From assembly GCF_003932955.1 (NCBI RefSeq), contig NZ_QOVY01000011.1, forward strand, positions 28,385 through 92,384: a stretch of DNA of 64,000 bases, in the 5' to 3' direction. The notes below the pieces were generated by a model. The model was not told the origin of the DNA and did no database searches. It worked only from the letters and a program-made list of their open reading frames with translations. Made by a program: the position numbers and the translations under genes. Positions 20,639 to 64,000 of this stretch are shown in pieces; the first letter of the stretch is position 1; every line of letters begins with the position of its first letter. This DNA is from Chryseobacterium sp. SC28 (GTDB taxonomy: Bacteria; Bacteroidota; Bacteroidia; Flavobacteriales; Weeksellaceae).

Positions 20639-20670
20639 TTGGTATTAGAAATTTGAAAATTGTATTTTTG
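20639..20670 (+). promoter_or_regulatory. Promoter of lpxK, TTG-N21-TATTTTTG
   Basis: TTG at 20639-20641, a 21-nt gap and TATTTTTG at 20663-20670 fit the Bacteroidetes -33/-7 consensus exactly. The ATG at 20677 follows after six bases, so the transcript would be leaderless or nearly so. The promoter also rules out the in-frame upstream GTG as start. Confidence 0.75.
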
Positions 20671-52104: not shown

Positions 52105-52172
52105 AAAAAAAGCGAGTTGCCCCGCTTTGAATGTTTTCACAACGGAATAATCCTTATTGTGAATTGCTTTCG
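52105..52172 (-). ncRNA. tracrRNA of the type II-C CRISPR-Cas system
   Basis: Read on the minus strand, 52171-52157 gives GAAAGCAATTCACAA, a 15-base perfect complement to the start of the crRNA-sense repeat, extended by one G-U pair. A small hairpin around GGA-TTAT-TCC follows, then the terminator AAAGCGGG-GCAA-CTCGCTTT with a GNRA loop (52129-52110) running into eight T. A -7-type box lies just upstream, so the predicted RNA is about 67 nt and starts at the anti-repeat. An anti-repeat, nexus-like hairpin and terminator next to cas9 is standard for tracrRNA. The 5' end is inferred. Confidence 0.85.
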
Positions 52173-52176
52173 GTTA

Positions 52177-52184
52177 CAAATCTA
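52177..52184 (-). promoter_or_regulatory. -7 box of tracrRNA
   Basis: Minus-strand TAGATTTG (52184-52177) matches TAnnTTTG. The predicted start is near 52172, directly at the anti-repeat. A good -33 TTG is not seen at normal spacing. Confidence 0.5.
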
Positions 52185-52271: not shown

Positions 52272-55200
52272 ATGAAAAGAAAAATACTAGGATTAGACTT
52301 GGGAACGAACTCGATTGGGTGGGCATTGATCGAGGTAGATGATAATAATATCCCTTTATGCATCATTGCAATGGGTTCAAGAATTATTCCTTTATCATCA
52401 TCAGATAAGGAGGAATTTCAAAGAGGGTTGTCAATTACGAAGAATCAAAGCAGAACGATTAGTCGTACCCAAAGAAAAGGGTATGACAGAAAACAATTGA
52501 AAAAAAGAGACTTAAAGAAAATTCTTGAAGAATATAATATTTTTCCATCTGAAGAATTATTGAAACTCCCTATGCTTGATTTATGGAAGTTAAGAAGTGA
52601 TTCTGCTAATCCCAACGAAAATATATCTGCTGAACAATTAGGGCGTATTTTTTATATGCTCAACCAAAAAAGAGGATATAAATCTGCAAGAAGCGAAGCA
52701 AATGCTGATAAAAAAGACACCGATTATGTTCAGGCAGTCAAAGGACGTTATGCCCAGCTGAAAGATAGAAATCAGACTATTGGGCAGTATTTTTACGAAG
52801 AATTATATAATGCAAACGCAAACAATTCTTATTTCAGAATCAAAGAAGAGGTATATCCACGTGAAGCTTATATAGAAGAGTTTGACGCTATTATAAATGC
52901 ACAAAAAAACAAGCATGATTTTCTAACAGATGAATTTGTTCACAAATTGCGTAATGAAATCATTTACTTTCAAAGGAAACTGAAATCTCAAAAAGGATTA
53001 GTCAGCATTTGCGAGTTTGAGGGTTTCGAGAAAACCATTTTCGATAATGAAAAGGGTAAAAATAAAGTTGTGTTTGTAGGACCAAAAGTTGCACCGAAAA
53101 CTTCTCCTTTGTTTCAGCTCTGTCGGATTTGGGAAGTGGTAAACACGATTACTTTAAAAATAAAAAATCCCGAAGGAAGCAAATATAAGTGGGGTGAGAA
53201 AACTCCCAATTTAAAAGAGAGGGAGATTTTAGCAGACTATTTGTTTAAAAATGATAATTTAAGTTTTACAAAGCTTCTTGAAATTTTAGGATTAAATAAA
53301 AATGATGTTTATGTAAATAAGCAAATTCTCAAAGGTATTAAAGGAAATGAAACTTACTCTACACTTCATACTATTTTAGGTGATAACGAATTTTTAAATT
53401 TTAATGTGTCCATCATTCCGTCAAATCATACTTCAATGTTGGTGGATAAAAAGACAGGTGAGATTCTGGAAGAAAGAGCTGGTTTGGAATTGGATGCTTC
53501 ATTGGAGAAAGAACCATTGTATCAACTGTGGCACACAATCTATTCCATAAAAGATTTAGATGAATGTAAAAGTGCACTAATAAAAAGGTTTGGTTTTGAT
53601 GATGAAATTGCCGATCAATTGTCTCGTATCGATTTTAATAAACAGGCTTTCGGGAACAAATCGAACAAATCGATGCGGAAAATCCTGCCTTTTCTGATGG
53701 AAGGCTATGATTATTCCCAATCCTGCAGTTTGGCTGGTTACAATCATTCTAATTCTTTGACGAAAGATGAAAGAGAACAGCAAATTACTTTAGACCGATT
53801 AGAACTTCTCCCCAAAAATAGTCTTAGACAACCTATTGTAGAGAAAATTCTGAACCAGATGATTAATGTGGTCAACGCAATCCTTGAACAATATGGAAAA
53901 CCATCTGAAATAAGAGTTGAACTTGCACGTGAACTTAAACAAAGTAAAGACGAGCGAAATGATGCCGATTTACAAAATTCCAAAAATAAAAAACTCAATG
54001 AGGAAATCGGGAAACGATTAGCTGAATTGGGGTTGCCTGTAACCAAGCGGTATATTCAGAAATATAAATTTATTTTTCCATCGCTCAGCAAAAATCTTAA
54101 AGATGCTCAAGTCAATAATCAATGTATTTATTGTGGGGAAACATTTAATTTAACTGAGGCTCTCAGTGGTGATGCATACGATGTTGACCATATTGTACCA
54201 AAAGATTTATTGTTTGATGATTCTCAGACCAACAAAGTATTGGTTCACAGGAAATGTAATTCGACAAAAACCAATCAAACTGCGTACGATTACATTGCTA
54301 CAAAAGGCGAGGAGCAATTGCGTCGCTATTCCGAGCGGATAGATGATTGGTTCAAAAGAGGTATTATTTCTTACAATAAAATGCAAAGATTGAAAGTTTC
54401 TCACAAGGAATATCTGGAAAGAAAAAAGGTAGGAAAAGAAACAGAAACCGATAAAAAACTATGGGAAAACTTTATCGACAGACAATTGAGGGATACTCAA
54501 TATATTTCTCGAAAAGCAAGAGAAATCTTACAGAAAATATGTAATAACGTTACTACAACAGAAGGTGGAGTTACGGCAAAACTTCGTAATTTATGGGGCT
54601 GGGACGATGTTTTGATGAATTTACAAATGCCTAAATATAGAGAATTAGGACAAACCGTTATCAAAGAGTGGACAAGCGAACACGGAAAAAGAAAACATCA
54701 AAAAGAGGAAATCGAAAATTGGACAAAAAGAGATGACCACCGTCATCACGCCATAGATGCTTTGGTTGTTGCTTGCACAAAGCAAGGTTTTATTCAACGG
54801 ATAAATACCTTGAATTCTAGTGATACCAAAGATCTGATGCAACGAGAAATTAAAGAAGCAAAAAAACTCTTAGGAGAAAATTATAACGAAAAAGAATTTG
54901 AAAATGATAATGAGTTAGTTAAAAATCACAAAGAAAGATTATCCCAATTAGATGATTATTTGCGTTTGCAGAAACCTGTTAAATTCGATACAAAATATGT
55001 TGAACAAGAGGCAGATAAGATTTTAGTTTCTTTTAAACCGGGTAAAAAAGTTGCAACAATAACTAAATTTAAAGCAACAGGAAGGAATAAAGATACTGGA
55101 GTAATTGTTCCAAGAGGAGCATTGCACGAGCAATCTGTTTATGGTAAAATTAAAGTTATCGAAAAAGATAAACCTTTAAAATATCTATTTGAAAATCCAG

Positions 55201-56132
55201 ACAAAATTGTAAATCCGAAAATCAAAAATCTTGTTGAAATTAGACTCTCAGAAAATCAAAATAGTTCTAAAATAGCCTTGTCCACTTTAAAGAAAAATCC
55301 AATCTTCACGAACAGACAAAAGACAGAAGTTCTAGAAAAATCATCTTGTTACAATGATGTTACTGTATTGAAATACAAATTACAAAGTTTAAAAGCCAGC
55401 CAAGCTGATGATATTGTTGATGAAAGAGTAAAGTTTTTAGTAAAAGAAAGACTAGCTCAATTTGGGAACAAAGAAAAAGAAGCTTTCAAGGATACACTTT
55501 GGTTTAACGAAGAAAAACAGATCCCGATTATCACCGTTCGTTTGTTTGCTCGTCCTGATGCTAATAATTTACAGGCAATTAAAAAAGATGAGAACGGTAA
55601 AGAAATAGGGTTTGTAGTGATGGGCAACAATCATCATATCGCTATTTATGAAGATAAGGACAATAAACTTATTCAGCATAGTTGCACTTTCTGGCACGCA
55701 GTAGAAAGGAAAAAATATAAGATTCCGCCTATTATTAAAAGTTCGTCAGATGTTTGGAGTCAAATATTAAACAAAGAACTTCCAGAATCATTTTTAAATA
55801 ATCTACCAGCTGATAATCTTAATTTAAAATTTAGTATGCAGCAAAATGAAATGTTTATTCTGGGTTTATCACAAGAAGAATTTGACGAAGCTCTGAAAAA
55901 TAATGATAAGTCTTTATTGAGTAAACATTTGTACTTGGTTTGGAGTGTCTCTGAAGGAGATTATTGGTTTAGACATCACTTAGAAACCAAAAATACAGAG
56001 TTAAAGAAAACTGTAGGCGCAAAAGAGAGTAAGAGATATTATCGATTAAGCACAAAAGGATTAATTGATTTAAATCCTATTAAAGTAAGATTAAATCATT
56101 TAGGAGAAATTACTAAAATAGGAGAGTACTAA
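52272..56132 (+). CDS. cas9: CRISPR-associated endonuclease Cas9 (type II-C)
   Basis: The 1286-residue protein has all nuclease sites. RuvC-I is GLDLGTNSIGWA with D9; RuvC-II is IRVELARELK with E550; HNH is DVDHIVPKDLLFDDS with D639, H640 and N663; RuvC-III is DDHRHHAIDALVV with H826 and D829. CIYC before the HNH and HRKC within it may bind zinc. An arginine-rich stretch near residue 60 (RTISRTQRKGYDRKQLKKR) is the bridge helix. The C-terminal ~350 residues form the wedge and PAM-interacting region. It cuts dsDNA guided by crRNA:tracrRNA. cas1 begins two bases after its stop; no csn2 or cas4 is present, hence II-C. Confidence 0.98.
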   Translation: MKRKILGLDLGTNSIGWALIEVDDNNIPLCIIAMGSRIIPLSSSDKEEFQRGLSITKNQSRTISRTQRKGYDRKQLKKRDLKKILEEYNIFPSEELLKLPMLDLWKLRSDSANPNENISAEQLGRIFYMLNQKRGYKSARSEANADKKDTDYVQAVKGRYAQLKDRNQTIGQYFYEELYNANANNSYFRIKEEVYPREAYIEEFDAIINAQKNKHDFLTDEFVHKLRNEIIYFQRKLKSQKGLVSICEFEGFEKTIFDNEKGKNKVVFVGPKVAPKTSPLFQLCRIWEVVNTITLKIKNPEGSKYKWGEKTPNLKEREILADYLFKNDNLSFTKLLEILGLNKNDVYVNKQILKGIKGNETYSTLHTILGDNEFLNFNVSIIPSNHTSMLVDKKTGEILEERAGLELDASLEKEPLYQLWHTIYSIKDLDECKSALIKRFGFDDEIADQLSRIDFNKQAFGNKSNKSMRKILPFLMEGYDYSQSCSLAGYNHSNSLTKDEREQQITLDRLELLPKNSLRQPIVEKILNQMINVVNAILEQYGKPSEIRVELARELKQSKDERNDADLQNSKNKKLNEEIGKRLAELGLPVTKRYIQKYKFIFPSLSKNLKDAQVNNQCIYCGETFNLTEALSGDAYDVDHIVPKDLLFDDSQTNKVLVHRKCNSTKTNQTAYDYIATKGEEQLRRYSERIDDWFKRGIISYNKMQRLKVSHKEYLERKKVGKETETDKKLWENFIDRQLRDTQYISRKAREILQKICNNVTTTEGGVTAKLRNLWGWDDVLMNLQMPKYRELGQTVIKEWTSEHGKRKHQKEEIENWTKRDDHRHHAIDALVVACTKQGFIQRINTLNSSDTKDLMQREIKEAKKLLGENYNEKEFENDNELVKNHKERLSQLDDYLRLQKPVKFDTKYVEQEADKILVSFKPGKKVATITKFKATGRNKDTGVIVPRGALHEQSVYGKIKVIEKDKPLKYLFENPDKIVNPKIKNLVEIRLSENQNSSKIALSTLKKNPIFTNRQKTEVLEKSSCYNDVTVLKYKLQSLKASQADDIVDERVKFLVKERLAQFGNKEKEAFKDTLWFNEEKQIPIITVRLFARPDANNLQAIKKDENGKEIGFVVMGNNHHIAIYEDKDNKLIQHSCTFWHAVERKKYKIPPIIKSSSDVWSQILNKELPESFLNNLPADNLNLKFSMQQNEMFILGLSQEEFDEALKNNDKSLLSKHLYLVWSVSEGDYWFRHHLETKNTELKKTVGAKESKRYYRLSTKGLIDLNPIKVRLNHLGEITKIGEY

Positions 56133-56134
56133 AT

Positions 56135-57363
<1,229 letters not shown>

Positions 57364-57381: not shown

Positions 57382-57417
57382 AAAAATAATCTACTGACAA
57401 TCAGTAGATTATTTTTT
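57382..57417. terminator. Bidirectional terminator between cas2 and the array
   Basis: A perfect 16-bp stem, with arms at 57382-57397 and 57401-57416, closes on a CAA loop. The + strand ends in a T run, and the minus strand ends in TTTTTGTTTTT. It can stop both the cas transcript and an RNA coming from the array. Confidence 0.88.
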
Positions 57418-57420
57418 GAG

Positions 57421-57467
57421 GTTGTGTTGTATCCCAAAGATACACAAAAATGAAAGCAATTCACAAC
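57421..57467 (-). promoter_or_regulatory. In-repeat crRNA promoter (terminal copy shown)
   Basis: In crRNA sense, repeat positions 2-4 are TTG and 26-33 are TATCTTTG, with a 21-nt gap, a full match to the Bacteroidetes promoter. In this cas2-proximal copy the -7 box is at 57442-57435. The same sites occur in every repeat, so each spacer would have its own start about four to seven bases before the repeat end. This last copy would fire straight into the bidirectional terminator. Confidence 0.65.
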
Positions 57468-60400
57468 TGCCGTGAAGAGCTCCTTCCTGACTCTTGGGTT
57501 GTGTTGTATCCCAAAGATACACAAAAATGAAAGCAATTCACAACTCGACAAAGTATTTTCCGAAATAAATGAAGGTTGTGTTGTATCCCAAAGATACACA
57601 AAAATGAAAGCAATTCACAACTCATTCAGCCGATGCCGCACATACTCTATCGTTGTGTTGTATCCCAAAGATACACAAAAATGAAAGCAATTCACAACTC
57701 TCCAGACTATTGCTACACACGAAGAAAAGTTGTGTTGTATCCCAAAGATACACAAAAATGAAAGCAATTCACAACGGTTGATGCAGAGACAGGGGTTTAT
57801 ACAGCGTTGTGTTGTATCCCAAAGATACACAAAAATGAAAGCAATTCACAACGATGTCATCGATTAAGATGATGTCTGGTCTGTTGTGTTGTATCCCAAA
57901 GATACACAAAAATGAAAGCAATTCACAACGCTAATACCCCGTTAAATGCTATTCCACAAGTTGTGTTGTATCCCAAAGATACACAAAAATGAAAGCAATT
58001 CACAACCGGAAAAGACGTCTATTGGACATCGACTTTGTTGTGTTGTATCCCAAAGATACACAAAAATGAAAGCAATTCACAACTACAACAGTTGTAGTTA
58101 ATTGGGGAAATGGGTTGTGTTGTATCCCAAAGATACACAAAAATGAAAGCAATTCACAACGTCAAGCGCAATCTTAATCTCTGTTTCACAGTTGTGTTGT
58201 ATCCCAAAGATACACAAAAATGAAAGCAATTCACAACCCTGTCTTGTCCATTATCTTGTTGCCGTCCGTTGTGTTGTATCCCAAAGATACACAAAAATGA
58301 AAGCAATTCACAACAGGGTTTACGATAACTACCATAGAAAATTAGTTGTGTTGTATCCCAAAGATACACAAAAATGAAAGCAATTCACAACGTGCTATCT
58401 TTGGTTTAGTTACAAGTACTCGTTGTGTTGTATCCCAAAGATACACAAAAATGAAAGCAATTCACAACTCTCATTTGAAAGTTTATATCAGTCAGTTCGT
58501 TGTGTTGTATCCCAAAGATACACAAAAATGAAAGCAATTCACAACCACGTAGAAGATATGACGCAAAGCTTTGTAGTTGTGTTGTATCCCAAAGATACAC
58601 AAAAATGAAAGCAATTCACAACCAGAAGCGATAGAGTATAATTTCGAAAACAGTTGTGTTGTATCCCAAAGATACACAAAAATGAAAGCAATTCACAACT
58701 ATAGCCTCGAACGGATTTTTATTAATAACGTTGTGTTGTATCCCAAAGATACACAAAAATGAAAGCAATTCACAACAGCATTTTTTTTCATTTGAAAACA
58801 AAAATAGTTGTGTTGTATCCCAAAGATACACAAAAATGAAAGCAATTCACAACACATTTACTTGAGGGAAAAAATCGGTTTACGTTGTGTTGTATCCCAA
58901 AGATACACAAAAATGAAAGCAATTCACAACAAACAATTTAAAAGACCTGCTATCCAAGTAGTTGTGTTGTATCCCAAAGATACACAAAAATGAAAGCAAT
59001 TCACAACGGTTTGGCGGGATATATTTCTGCACATGGTGTTGTGTTGTATCCCAAAGATACACAAAAATGAAAGCAATTCACAACTAAAACTTTAACAAAA
59101 ACTTTAACATACGAGTTGTGTTGTATCCCAAAGATACACAAAAATGAAAGCAATTCACAACTTAACGTCATCGTGTTCAATATCTAACTCAGTTGTGTTG
59201 TATCCCAAAGATACACAAAAATGAAAGCAATTCACAACTGACGAAATACTTGCAAGGTTTGAGTATCTGTTGTGTTGTATCCCAAAGATACACAAAAATG
59301 AAAGCAATTCACAACGCGCTACTTGGCGTCGTGAAAGACGGCATAGTTGTGTTGTATCCCAAAGATACACAAAAATGAAAGCAATTCACAACAATCCGGC
59401 AACTCGCTGGCTATGATGATTCGTTGTGTTGTATCCCAAAGATACACAAAAATGAAAGCAATTCACAACGTAATCAGTATTGTCATAGTAAGGTGTGTAG
59501 TTGTGTTGTATCCCAAAGATACACAAAAATGAAAGCAATTCACAACATGCAACCTATGTAGAAAGCAGAGGATTTAGTTGTGTTGTATCCCAAAGATACA
59601 CAAAAATGAAAGCAATTCACAACTGCTGAGAAATCAGTTAAATAAAATTCTTGGTTGTGTTGTGTCCCAAAGATACACAAAAATGAAAGCAATTCACAAC
59701 CTAAATGTGCTTCATGTTCGGTATTGAAATGTTGTGTTGTGTCCCAAAGATACACAAAAATGAAAGCAATTCACAACTGTAAATGATATTCTGGATGCCT
59801 CATAATTGTTGTGTTGTATCCCAAAGATACACAAAAATGAAAGCAATTCACAACTCGGGATGCGCGCGGACGGGCGCTTCTATCGTTGTGTTGTATCCCA
59901 AAGATACACAAAAATGAAAGCAATTCACAACTGATGAAGATGAAGCTAATACGGCTAATTGGTTGTGTTGTATCCCAAAGATACACAAAAATGAAAGCAA
60001 TTCACAACTTAAGTCATCTTCATCAATTAGCTTTATGTGTTGTGTTGTATCCCAAAGATACACAAAAATGAAAGCAATTCACAACGCATTAAGCTCTTCT
60101 TCGTTTAAGTTATCCGTTGTGTTGTATCCCAAAGATACACAAAAATGAAAGCAATTCACAACCCGACGATGAATGGCTTCAACGGGGCCGCAGTTGTGTT
60201 GTATCCCAAAGATACACAAAAATGAAAGCAATTCACAACTATAGACGATATGGGTTATTATATCGTACCGTTGTGTTGTATCCCAAAGATACACAAAAAT
60301 GAAAGCAATTCACAACCGCTCGTGCTAATGGATATACAGACGACAGGTTGTGTTGTATCCCAAAGATACACAAAAATGAAAGCAATTCACAACATCCTTA

Positions 60401-63400
60401 ACCCACTCTGTGATAACGTGTATGTTGTGTTGTATCCCAAAGATACACAAAAATGAAAGCAATTCACAACTAAAACACCAGAAGATAATGGAAAATGATA
60501 GTTGTGTTGTATCCCAAAGATACACAAAAATGAAAGCAATTCACAACTATGCTTTGAGAATCAATTTTCCGGAAAAAGTTGTGTTGTATCCCAAAGATAC
60601 ACAAAAATGAAAGCAATTCACAACGTGAATAATAATGACAGCATTTCAGGCGTCGTTGTGTTGTATCCCAAAGATACACAAAAATGAAAGCAATTCACAA
60701 CCATAGTCTCGATCACGTCAATCCGTTGTGGGTTGTGTTGTATCCCAAAGATACACAAAAATGAAAGCAATTCACAACTGCAGTTTTATTGTTATTTTTG
60801 ATTCAAATGTTGTGTTGTATCCCAAAGATACACAAAAATGAAAGCAATTCACAACCATCTTGGTTATGGACGGGCGCGAGCTGGAGTTGTGTTGTATCCC
60901 AAAGATACACAAAAATGAAAGCAATTCACAACCGGTGCAGTTGTAGTTTACGATTACGGAAAGTTGTGTTGTATCCCAAAGATACACAAAAATGAAAGCA
61001 ATTCACAACCGTATAACGTGGTGTGTAGCCGATAGGGCGGTTGTGTTGTATCCCAAAGATACACAAAAATGAAAGCAATTCACAACATGTTATCAATGAT
61101 AACTAATCCGCAATTAGTTGTGTTGTATCCCAAAGATACACAAAAATGAAAGCAATTCACAACGCGCATTTCCAGCACTCTCAAAGTTTTGCCGTTGTGT
61201 TGTATCCCAAAGATACACAAAAATGAAAGCAATTCACAACCACACCGAATGGGATGATAACGAACTTGCCGTTGTGTTGTATCCCAAAGATACACAAAAA
61301 TGAAAGCAATTCACAACACTGCTATTTTTTGTTCCATTGAATATTGTGTTGTGTTGTATCCCAAAGATACACAAAAATGAAAGCAATTCACAACTCAAAG
61401 TTTTGAAGAAAAATCAACTGTTATGTTGTGTTGTATCCCAAAGATACACAAAAATGAAAGCAATTCACAACGGAATTCACGGCCGATGCCGATGAGTTCG
61501 GTTGTGTTGTATCCCAAAGATACACAAAAATGAAAGCAATTCACAACTGTAGCTTTTGAAGAAAAATTTTCACAGAAGTTGTGTTGTATCCCAAAGATAC
61601 ACAAAAATGAAAGCAATTCACAACAAATAAGTCAGATTAATGGTCAAATAGAGGGTTGTGTTGTATCCCAAAGATACACAAAAATGAAAGCAATTCACAA
61701 CAATCTGTAACGATGTGATAATGTATATTACGTTGTGTTGTATCCCAAAGATACACAAAAATGAAAGCAATTCACAACGCATTTTTATTCGACAAAATCT
61801 CTGGTAGAGTTGTGTTGTATCCCAAAGATACACAAAAATGAAAGCAATTCACAACCCCAAATCAATATGCACTTTGATAAAACAAGTTGTGTTGTATCCC
61901 AAAGATACACAAAAATGAAAGCAATTCACAACAGGTGTGTATACTTTATGTTGATCCCGTCGGTTGTGTTGTATCCCAAAGATACACAAAAATGAAAGCA
62001 ATTCACAACATATTGAATTTTTGATTAAAATGCCTGCCCGTTGTGTTGTATCCCAAAGATACACAAAAATGAAAGCAATTCACAACTGATAGGTTATTGT
62101 TAACGGAATTGACCTTGTTGTGTTGTATCCCAAAGATACACAAAAATGAAAGCAATTCACAACTACCATTAAAATCTTCTGTAAATAAAGATAGTTGTGT
62201 TGTATCCCAAAGATACACAAAAATGAAAGCAATTCACAACTAAGCGGATAAGGTCTTCTACTTTCATTACGTTGTGTTGTATCCCAAAGATACACAAAAA
62301 TGAAAGCAATTCACAACACTTAAATCTGTGTTGTAGAAATTTGAACAGTTGTGTTGTATCCCAAAGATACACAAAAATGAAAGCAATTCACAACAACAGA
62401 TTGACGCTTACCGAGAAGAATCTTGTTGTGTTGTATCCCAAAGATACACAAAAATGAAAGCAATTCACAACAGATCTAGCCGTCGTGCTGGCCATGTACT
62501 TGTTGTGTTGTATCCCAAAGATACACAAAAATGAAAGCAATTCACAACATTCGGAAATATTATCAATTTCCTCTATCGGTTGTGTTGTATCCCAAAGATA
62601 CACAAAAATGAAAGCAATTCACAACGGATGAGCAGCCCGTTGCACGACGCCGCGGGTTGTGTTGTATCCCAAAGATACACAAAAATGAAAGCAATTCACA
62701 ACAACGGTTGCTTCCGATACTGGCATAATTATGTTGTGTTGTATCCCAAAGATACACAAAAATGAAAGCAATTCACAACATTCTTCGCTTTATTAATTGG
62801 AGCAAACGAGTTGTGTTGTATCCCAAAGATACACAAAAATGAAAGCAATTCACAACCTAAATCAACAAGTTTTTTAAATTCAATATGTTGTGTTGTATCC
62901 CAAAGATACACAAAAATGAAAGCAATTCACAACTATCGTCAAAATGAAAGATTATGCCAGCTCGTTGTGTTGTATCCCAAAGATACACAAAAATGAAAGC
63001 AATTCACAACAGTATTTAACTGCATCTAAATTGCCGGTTAGTTGTGTTGTATCCCAAAGATACACAAAAATGAAAGCAATTCACAACCGATGTTTGTTAA
63101 TATTATTTATAAATCTTGTTGTGTTGTATCCCAAAGATACACAAAAATGAAAGCAATTCACAACTAACTTTGCTATGTGCTTTTCGGTAAAAAAGTTGTG
63201 TTGTATCCCAAAGATACACAAAAATGAAAGCAATTCACAACGAATTCTTAATGCGGTGATAGCGATTTCTCGTTGTGTTGTATCCCAAAGATACACAAAA
63301 ATGAAAGCAATTCACAACAAGCCGAAAGTTTCCGCCTAAACCCTTGTAGTTGTGTTGTATCCCAAAGATACACAAAAATGAAAGCAATTCACAACAGCAC

Positions 63401-64000
63401 CTTTGTCCAACAACGCTTTTCCGAGGTTGTGTTGTATCCCAAAGATACACAAAAATGAAAGCAATTCACAACAGCGCAAAGTATGAGGTTTGAGCAGGGA
63501 TAGTTGTGTTGTATCCCAAAGATACACAAAAATGAAAGCAATTCACAACTAAAAAGCTGATGTCTGATACCTGATTGGGGTTGTGTTGTATCCCAAAGAT
63601 ACACAAAAATGAAAGCAATTCACAACAAAAACATTGACGATCACGAGAGACTTATTGTTGTGTTGTATCCCAAAGATACACAAAAATGAAAGCAATTCAC
63701 AACCCTGTAACATTGTTTCCGGAGGCCAGACGAGTTGTGTTGTATCCCAAAGATACACAAAAATGAAAGCAATTCACAACATGCTATCAGCCGCGAAGTG
63801 GCAAAAGAAAGTTGTGTTGTATCCCAAAGATACACAAAAATGAAAGCAATTCACAACCGTTCAGGAATTGCTTTCTGTGGATAGAATGTTGTGTTGTATC
63901 CCAAAGATACACAAAAATGAAAGCAATTCACAACACCACATACAATTCATCAGACGGCTTCCGGTTGTGTTGTATCCCAAAGATACACAAAAATGAAAGC
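57421..64000 (-). CRISPR. Type II-C CRISPR array, 85 full repeats plus a partial one
   Basis: The 47-bp repeat starts GTTGTGTTGTATCCC and ends GAAAGCAATTCACAAC on the + strand. It occurs 85 times in full from 57421 to 63934, with a 37-base piece of the 86th at 63964-64000. The 85 spacers are all different; 83 are 30 bp and two are 29 bp (61472-61500 and 63935-63963). Period is 77 bp. All repeats look identical except those at 59654 and 59731, which share one A-to-G change at position 11. Read on the minus strand, each repeat holds TTG-N21-TATCTTTG, and its first 16 bases pair with the tracrRNA. Transcription toward cas2 is therefore inferred, with the leader outside the window. Confidence 0.98.

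Follow-up and report, generated by a model that had tools for sequence, protein, structure and literature searches.

Type II-C arrays of clustered regularly interspaced short palindromic repeats (CRISPR) in Neisseria meningitidis and Campylobacter jejuni reportedly carry a promoter embedded in each repeat, as Zhang and Dugar are said to have described in 2013. In Neisseria, the transcription start is placed at the repeat end. The idea is not wholly new for Bacteroidota, where TTG has been proposed as a repeat-encoded promoter in Flavobacterium (PMC8092290 and PMC10309648; here and below, statements about cited papers refer to the portions of their text that were available), and the Neisseria and Campylobacter repeat promoters are described in PMC12080349, PMC13187072, and PMC8616872. 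Here, we analyzed a type II-C array in a 64,000-nucleotide (nt) stretch of the Chryseobacterium sp. SC28 genome, termed the window (contig NZ_QOVY01000011.1, positions 28,385 to 92,384). On the strand predicted to yield CRISPR RNA (crRNA), each full repeat of this array bears TAnnTTTG, the -7 promoter element of Bacteroidota, and likely starts its own short crRNA, with no leader promoter needed. An earlier note on this DNA had claimed a complete promoter in each repeat, with TTG as the -33 box. Our data back the -7 as a conserved module. They do not back the TTG as a -33 box, since it lies in the arm that pairs with trans-activating crRNA (tracrRNA) and is not retained in repeats lacking that arm.

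The repeat in the window

Read on the minus strand, the repeat GTTGTGAATTGCTTTCATTTTTGTGTATCTTTGGGATACAACACAAC has TTG at positions 2 to 4 and TATCTTTG at positions 26 to 33, with 21 nt between them. The earlier note had described this geometry and had pointed to equal spacing at 20639 to 20670, a site that it assigned to lpxK. Both spacings hold, as 21 nt also separate the TTG at 20639 to 20641 from TATTTTTG at 20663 to 20670. In the first repeat (57421 to 57467), the -7 element lies at 57435 to 57442, the TTG proposed as the -33 at 57464 to 57466, and the transcription start predicted from the -7 position at 57428 to 57432 (repeat positions 36 to 40), all on the minus strand.

The array occupies 57421 to 64000 on the minus strand, with its newest end at 57421, adjoining cas2, and its oldest end on contig C10 of the same genome. 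The window holds 85 full 47-nt repeats, of which 83 are identical and 2 have a single change, plus one partial copy cut by the contig end at 64000. Contig C10 contributes 33 further copies, the last of which is degenerate. The window part of the array has 84 distinct spacers, 83 of 30 nt and one of 29 nt. Across the window and C10, TATCTTTG is kept in 117 of 118 copies, including all 85 full window copies, and the TTG in 116 of 118; the last C10 copy (C10:3940) differs at minus-strand positions 2 and 3. The 85 copies are not independent observations, because they are one sequence duplicated. In dinucleotide shuffles of the window repeat, TAnnTTTG arose in 6.9%, and a TTG followed on the same strand by TAnnTTTG after 17 to 23 nt arose in 1.3%. 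Thus, a single repeat is suggestive and not decisive, and the comparative tests decide. After the tenth copy on C10 (L009), at approximately 800 to 2240, lies an ISL3-family transposase gene (Pfam PF01610), beside a copy without its last plus-strand bases; both array parts around this gene keep the -7 element.

Plus strand 52157 to 52171 is identical to minus-strand repeat positions 2 to 16. The tracrRNA anti-repeat GAAAGCAATTCACAA, complementary to these positions, therefore lies on the minus strand at 52157 to 52171, before a predicted tracrRNA terminator at 52128 to 52109. This makes the minus-strand repeat the predicted crRNA handle, in agreement with the strand chosen in the earlier note.

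Conservation of the -7 element across repeats

We searched 395 Bacteroidota genomes for Cas9. Sixty-five scored over the family cut-off, and 64 stretches were taken from 63 of them, the window's own genome and one with a partial match being excluded. Named loci were added by Cas1 profile (the best 80 of 583). The 144 sources scanned (the window and L041 to L183) included 29 without an array, and four (L111, L139, L156, and L163) were dropped for a partial or irregular consensus, leaving 111 usable repeats in 43 clusters at 80% identity. L026 was scanned once, had no array, and was left out. Two genomes are counted twice among the 111 (L077 is L180, and L089 is L126), and not all 111 are surely Bacteroidota, as L157 is recorded as Eubacteriales and L153 as Melioribacter. 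We set the orientation of L086 by hand and removed two leading bases from L146. Group labels (e.g., Weeksellaceae) were likewise assigned by hand, from record names, and that set includes Capnocytophaga (L123) and a genome of another family (L084).

On the crRNA strand from position 18 on, TA..TTTG ranked first among all XX..XXXX patterns in the 111 repeats (weight, 14.9; 18 of 43 clusters) and was absent from their opposite strand. By class, 35 repeats have the exact TAnnTTTG; TTTA, TTAG, or TTCG replaces its last four bases in 18, 10, and 8; 11 have TTCTTTG-type motifs, 3 have GATCTTTG, and 26 have none of these. The exact element was present in 12 of 32 long-repeat cluster representatives compared to a shuffle mean of 1.17 (maximum of 6 in 2,000 rounds). 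With the TTAG, TTTA, and TTCG forms included, the count was 24 of 32 compared to 2.42 (maximum, 8), and the 36-nt representatives had the exact element in 2 of 11 (0.19 expected); as clusters are related by descent, these shuffle comparisons overstate independence.

In type I repeats of the phylum, TAnnTTTG was found in 0 of 11 clusters on either strand (45 loci, with 15 further loci lacking an array), compared to 14 of 43 clusters at Cas9 loci (Fisher P = 0.048 from the plain table). We also fetched twelve plasmid regions, four of which had no array. Six type II repeats of other phyla had no exact TAnnTTTG on either strand, and three of these six end in TACAAT or TATAAT, the sigma-70 form. 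Two Bacteroidota plasmid repeats had TATCTTTG (Phocaeicola) and TACCTTTC (Persicobacter).

The repeats with TTCTTTG in place of TAnnTTTG, which look boxA-like, are L061, L062, L073, L094, L099, L103, L148, L153, L165, and L171; L071 has TTATTTG. We use boxA, by name and consensus, for what we take to be that signal in sequences like those of ribosomal RNA (rRNA) leaders. The CTTTG core could be a boxA-like antitermination signal acting in the RNA, with no promoter present. The 11 repeats of the 111 that have TTCTTTG-type motifs without TA would suit such a signal, as would the 8 repeats that contain TCTTTGACA, and the rRNA leader of G361, whose repeat L062 belongs to the TTCTTTG group, has GTTCTTTGACA. 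However, the variants TATTTTTG, TAATTTTG, and TAGATTTG keep the promoter code but break TCTTT, and the rRNA leader in a genome of the window's genus has GTTCATTGACA, unlike TATCTTTGGGA. We therefore set boxA in the repeat aside for the window's lineage and hold this reading to be very improbable.

The conserved stretch could also act structurally, as a short hairpin (GTATC-TTTGG-GATAC) of the repeat, in DNA or RNA form, with a role in processing or in spacer integration, its likeness to a promoter being accidental. Five pairs flank TTTGG in the window repeat, and 5 or 6 pairs can form across the element in 8 of the 19 close-relative repeats scored. Elsewhere, however, no more than 2 pairs form in 42 of the 56 repeats scored, though these hold the element or one of its variants. 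Variation is greatest at the nn bases (TC, AC, TT, AT, GT, GA, AG, and TA), which would have to pair. A T to C change at minus-strand position 37, present in 24 of 33 C10 copies and 2 window copies, breaks the middle pair but lies outside the -7 element. A hairpin thus seems quite unlikely to be what is conserved.

TAnnTTTG as a likely promoter code of the genome

In the window and 20 further 20-kb stretches of the same genome, with gene starts called by a simple open reading frame (ORF) rule, TAnnTTTG reached 3.44 per kb in regions upstream of genes, compared to 0.80 in those between convergent genes and 0.41 within coding sequence. Of the 115 upstream sites, 75 had their end no more than 40 nt from the start codon. 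Across 403 upstream regions of this genome and close relatives, we counted 103 compared to 20.4 in shuffles, an approximately 5-fold enrichment. The single deviations most enriched there were TTAG (2.4-fold) and TTTA (1.5-fold), both of which recur in repeats, and TATTTTTA was 3.3-fold enriched upstream in genomes with TTTA or TTAG repeats. The enrichment of TAnnTTAG and TAnnTTTA before genes suggests a looser -7 consensus in these relatives (window, L184 to L203, L104 to L124, L066, L080, and L084). Forward versus reverse counts over whole upstream regions were set aside: in one count over all loci, TAnnTTTG had 320 forward and 291 reverse matches, and in a second scan it was not in the top 25 patterns by strand bias and only its position near start codons stood out. 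Such counts are uninformative because divergent gene pairs and repeat remnants contaminate whole upstream regions; short windows upstream of start codons, with shuffles, were used instead. From PMC7366714, we infer that the housekeeping sigma factor would be the reader of the -7.

The tracrRNA appears to use the same code. TAGATTTG, a TAnnTTTG match, lies on the minus strand at 52184 to 52177, just before the window anti-repeat, as the -7 element of the predicted tracrRNA promoter. We scored anti-repeats at 104 loci, some of these matches being stray array copies (e.g., L117, L131, L161, and L165). At 50 of the loci (26 of 42 clusters, window included), TAnnTTTG lay no more than 45 nt upstream, at 0 to 15 nt in 47 cases. 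Approximately 4 to 15% would be expected at this genome's motif densities. The tracrRNA is thus predicted to begin at its own anti-repeat.

The TTG and the oldest repeats

Of the 111 related repeats, 103 have the TTG at positions 2 to 4, as do 3 of the 6 type II repeats from other phyla. This TTG sits in the tracrRNA-pairing arm and more likely belongs to that arm, or to a terminal inverted repeat, than to a promoter. The oldest repeat of an array needs no pairing arm, because no spacer lies upstream of it. Among 87 arrays with a visible oldest end, 51 have changes of at least 3 nt in the oldest repeat that begin on the arm side, and 47 of those changes stop before the -7, while the newest repeat is intact in all 87. 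The 51 include L122, which has an insertion or deletion and no loss, and L089 and L126, which are one array. In shortened repeats with the element or a variant, the mismatch was 0.51 in the arm, 0.039 in the -7, and 0.031 after it. Arm-side loss with the -7 half kept fits a retained promoter half. We do not present the arm loss as new, since the available text of Feussner 2025 (PMC12080349) already describes the oldest II-C repeat as mutated mostly in its first 15 nt and as having to stay a promoter.

In 28 oldest repeats that had lost at least 5 nt and kept the -7, a TTG at 17 to 23 nt was present in 4, compared to 5 of 28 for a control interval. The TTG therefore does not behave as a needed box, and its use as a functional -33 was set aside as unsupported, its presence being explained by the pairing arm. 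The earlier note had proposed conservation in other Bacteroidetes II-C repeats as a check. In that comparison TAnnTTTG came out as the top pattern.

Possible transcription from outside the array

A single promoter outside the array, in the leader or the oldest-end flank, could instead drive transcription and leave the -7 match unused, a possibility that we consider unlikely. Leader promoters were predicted in Riemerella (PMC5006608). One cluster, L054, also looks as a leader-transcribed array would: its eight arrays have 36-nt repeats without the -7 and have cas9 on the other side of the array, and 6 of the 8 (L054, L085, L086, L091, L097, and L098) carry the rRNA-like boxA GTTC(A/T)TTGACA, also present in rRNA leaders of the phylum, 68 to 94 nt before the array. 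However, this sequence was found in 0 of 71 arrays with the -7 or variants, and in none of the other 32 arrays without the element. On the crRNA strand, TAnnTTTG, the one promoter type scanned for, lies within 150 nt upstream of the oldest repeat in 2 of 23 exact-repeat arrays (7 of 23 on the other strand). An outside promoter would also leave the top rank of TAnnTTTG among repeat patterns without account. From these sequences, it looks as though transcription is leader driven in one cluster and repeat driven in another.

Evidence against a start in each repeat

The unretained TTG is one of several observations that weigh against a promoter in every repeat. The element is not universal, being missing from 26 of 111 repeats, from 11 more with TTCTTTG, and from the 3 with GATCTTTG. 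Another 8, close relatives by Cas1, have the weak form TAnnTTCG, and the TTCG deviation is not clearly enriched upstream of genes (6 compared to 4.7 shuffled, or 1.3-fold, and to 12.8 scaled from convergent regions). L063 and L167, which count among the 35 exact matches, hold the element out of register. In shortened oldest repeats, the 3' half outside the -7 is conserved at least as well as the -7 itself, and arm loss extends to repeats that lack the element (7 of 7 shortened repeats of 36 nt). Near the leader, hairpins are equally common on the other strand (49 compared to 52 of 110), so they are no proof of direction, and we set terminator hairpins aside for that purpose. Whatever the class of array, TAnnTTTG seldom occurs in the 150 nt preceding the oldest repeat (0 of 21 in 36-nt arrays without the element), and its absence there thus does not separate the classes. 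Most arrays lacking the -7 also lack boxA, so the transcription of those arrays is accounted for by neither. A -7 before the anti-repeat also occurs in loci with repeats that lack the element (e.g., L042, L043, L091, and L098) and therefore supports the promoter code and not the repeat promoter itself. Finally, the available text of PMC5006608 reports no promoter in Riemerella repeats.

We nevertheless favor a start in each repeat, in which the repeat would have two modules. Repeat positions 2 to 16 would pair with the tracrRNA anti-repeat and serve as the handle of the upstream spacer. The second half, with the -7 at 26 to 33, would start the next spacer approximately 8 to 12 nt before the repeat end, and the tracrRNA would start at its own anti-repeat from the same kind of -7 element. 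The array would be transcribed in the direction of its newest spacer, starting from the oldest, and transcription would be halted before cas2 by an intrinsic-terminator-like hairpin on the minus strand at 57382 to 57416, 4 nt past the newest repeat, where transcripts would exit the array. Pairing of the next repeat with tracrRNA would set the crRNA 3' end, whether RNase III takes part or not.

The cas genes

On the plus strand, cas9 (52272 to 56132; 1,286 amino acids), cas1 (56135 to 57028), and cas2 (57025 to 57363) abut one another, and the array follows. In profile searches, cas9 matched TIGR01865 with 476.7 bits (cut-off, 100), cas1 matched cas1_NMENI with 288.5 (120), and cas2 scored 56.7 (24.5); from Cas9 alone, the library models used do not separate II-C from II-A. 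The cas2 start codon was picked by eye; the ORF as listed begins at 56980. Between cas9 and the array there is no other plus-strand ORF of at least 80 amino acids, so csn2 and cas4 are absent from the operon, the part of the genome searched. As judged by sequence, the locus has the type II-C features tested, namely, type II Cas1 and Cas2 with Cas9, no csn2 or cas4 in the operon, an anti-repeat near cas9, and a decayed far-end repeat. In Riemerella, spacer acquisition next to cas2 has been shown experimentally (PMC6008519).

Phage mini-arrays

The Riemerella anatipestifer repeat matches 12 phage records over its full length. In all 10 Riemerella phages fetched (L229 to L238), the end of a gene is followed by a half-repeat with TATCTTTG and no arm, a 30-nt spacer, a full repeat, and a terminator-like hairpin. 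The first spacer is identical in nine of the ten and matches the tape-measure gene of another record, labelled GDF21, at 27 of 30 positions; CRP19 has two further units with a second spacer. In IMG/VR, 12 stretches have a full repeat holding the element, among them one more mini-array, L253, with the half-repeat TATATTTG. A search of the phage collection with the window array matched one record, the Riemerella phage repeat, and the Bacteroidales repeat L072 had no match among phages.

Several further features of these records were seen. In each of the ten Riemerella phages fetched, the mini-array precedes a gene annotated as DNA-damage-inducible protein D. Five viral contigs (L248, L249, L250, L252, and L257) have a solitary repeat with TAnnTTTG, with no other copy inside 300 nt; these may be RNA anti-CRISPR units. 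A sixth IMG/VR repeat, L255, is cut by the stretch end. OQ791282.1 (H44), which bears the name Shigella phage Henu10, shares the Riemerella repeat and spacer with phage PT15, at identical coordinates, and is possibly mislabelled.

Compared by title and abstract, the Riemerella phage units fit the phage mini-arrays and RNA anti-CRISPRs of PMC7099407, PMC11656645, and PMC10651486, which are likewise short host-like CRISPR units in phage genomes. Unlike those mini-arrays as the available text presents them, the unit in Riemerella phages begins with a half-repeat in which the -7 side is kept. Because the repeat would bring its promoter along, a self-sufficient guide RNA cassette of approximately 150 bp would need no more than a half-repeat, a single spacer, a repeat, and a hairpin. 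A wider picture, which we regard as evenly balanced between right and wrong, is that Bacteroidota II-C arrays are tandem crRNA genes with a sigma-specific -7 in the repeat, that the tracrRNA has its own likewise at the anti-repeat, and that Riemerella phages took up the cassette to load host Cas9 with their own guide. If so, phage mini-arrays gain a built-in promoter.

Comparison with known systems

In the literature searched, which lacks most subscription papers, we found no paper that names TAnnTTTG or a -7 in CRISPR repeats. The II-C system of Flavobacterium columnare (Hoikkala 2021, PMC8092290) shares the phylum, the transcription direction (eight reads), and the proposal of a promoter per repeat. 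Its repeat is 36 bp, however, and the available text names a TTG 33 bp upstream of the spacer and no -7, whereas here the -7 is supported and the TTG is not. For the Fp2Cas9 locus of Flavobacterium psychrophilum (Chen 2023, PMC10309648), a repeat-encoded promoter is likewise claimed for the array, but it is again the TTG, and in both of its occurrences in the available text TAnnTTTG is named for the cas9 promoter. R. anatipestifer CRISPR1 (PMC5006608 and PMC6008519) has the same locus plan, 47-nt repeats, an anti-repeat TGAAAGCAATTCACAA upstream of cas9, and spacers added next to cas2. Its authors found no promoter in the repeats, as far as the available text of PMC5006608 goes, whereas the strain repeat examined here (L122) holds TATCTTTG. 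Feussner 2025 (PMC12080349) differs in describing no phylum-specific promoter element; Bacteroid, Flavobacteri, and TAnnTTTG occur nowhere in the main text available.

If each repeat does start a crRNA, this mode of synthesis extends to a phylum with another housekeeping sigma factor. Repeats would then follow the promoter code of their host, and the parts of the long 46- to 50-nt repeats would have assigned roles. Such an array moved to a sigma-70 host is predicted to be poorly expressed. Two published readings would also be corrected, that of the TTG as the promoter and that of no promoter in Riemerella.

Taken together, sequence comparison supports the -7 well but not the TTG, and the claim fails for part of the Bacteroidota. 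The likeness to Neisseria and Campylobacter drawn in the earlier note is supported: those II-C systems share the cas9-cas1-cas2 locus, new spacers at the far (downstream) end, a promoter per repeat, and an oldest repeat with a decayed arm. They differ from the system here, which has TAnnTTTG of the Bacteroidota code and repeats of mostly 46 to 50 nt with the start predicted inside the repeat. The mechanism is thus likely the known II-C one, written in another promoter code.

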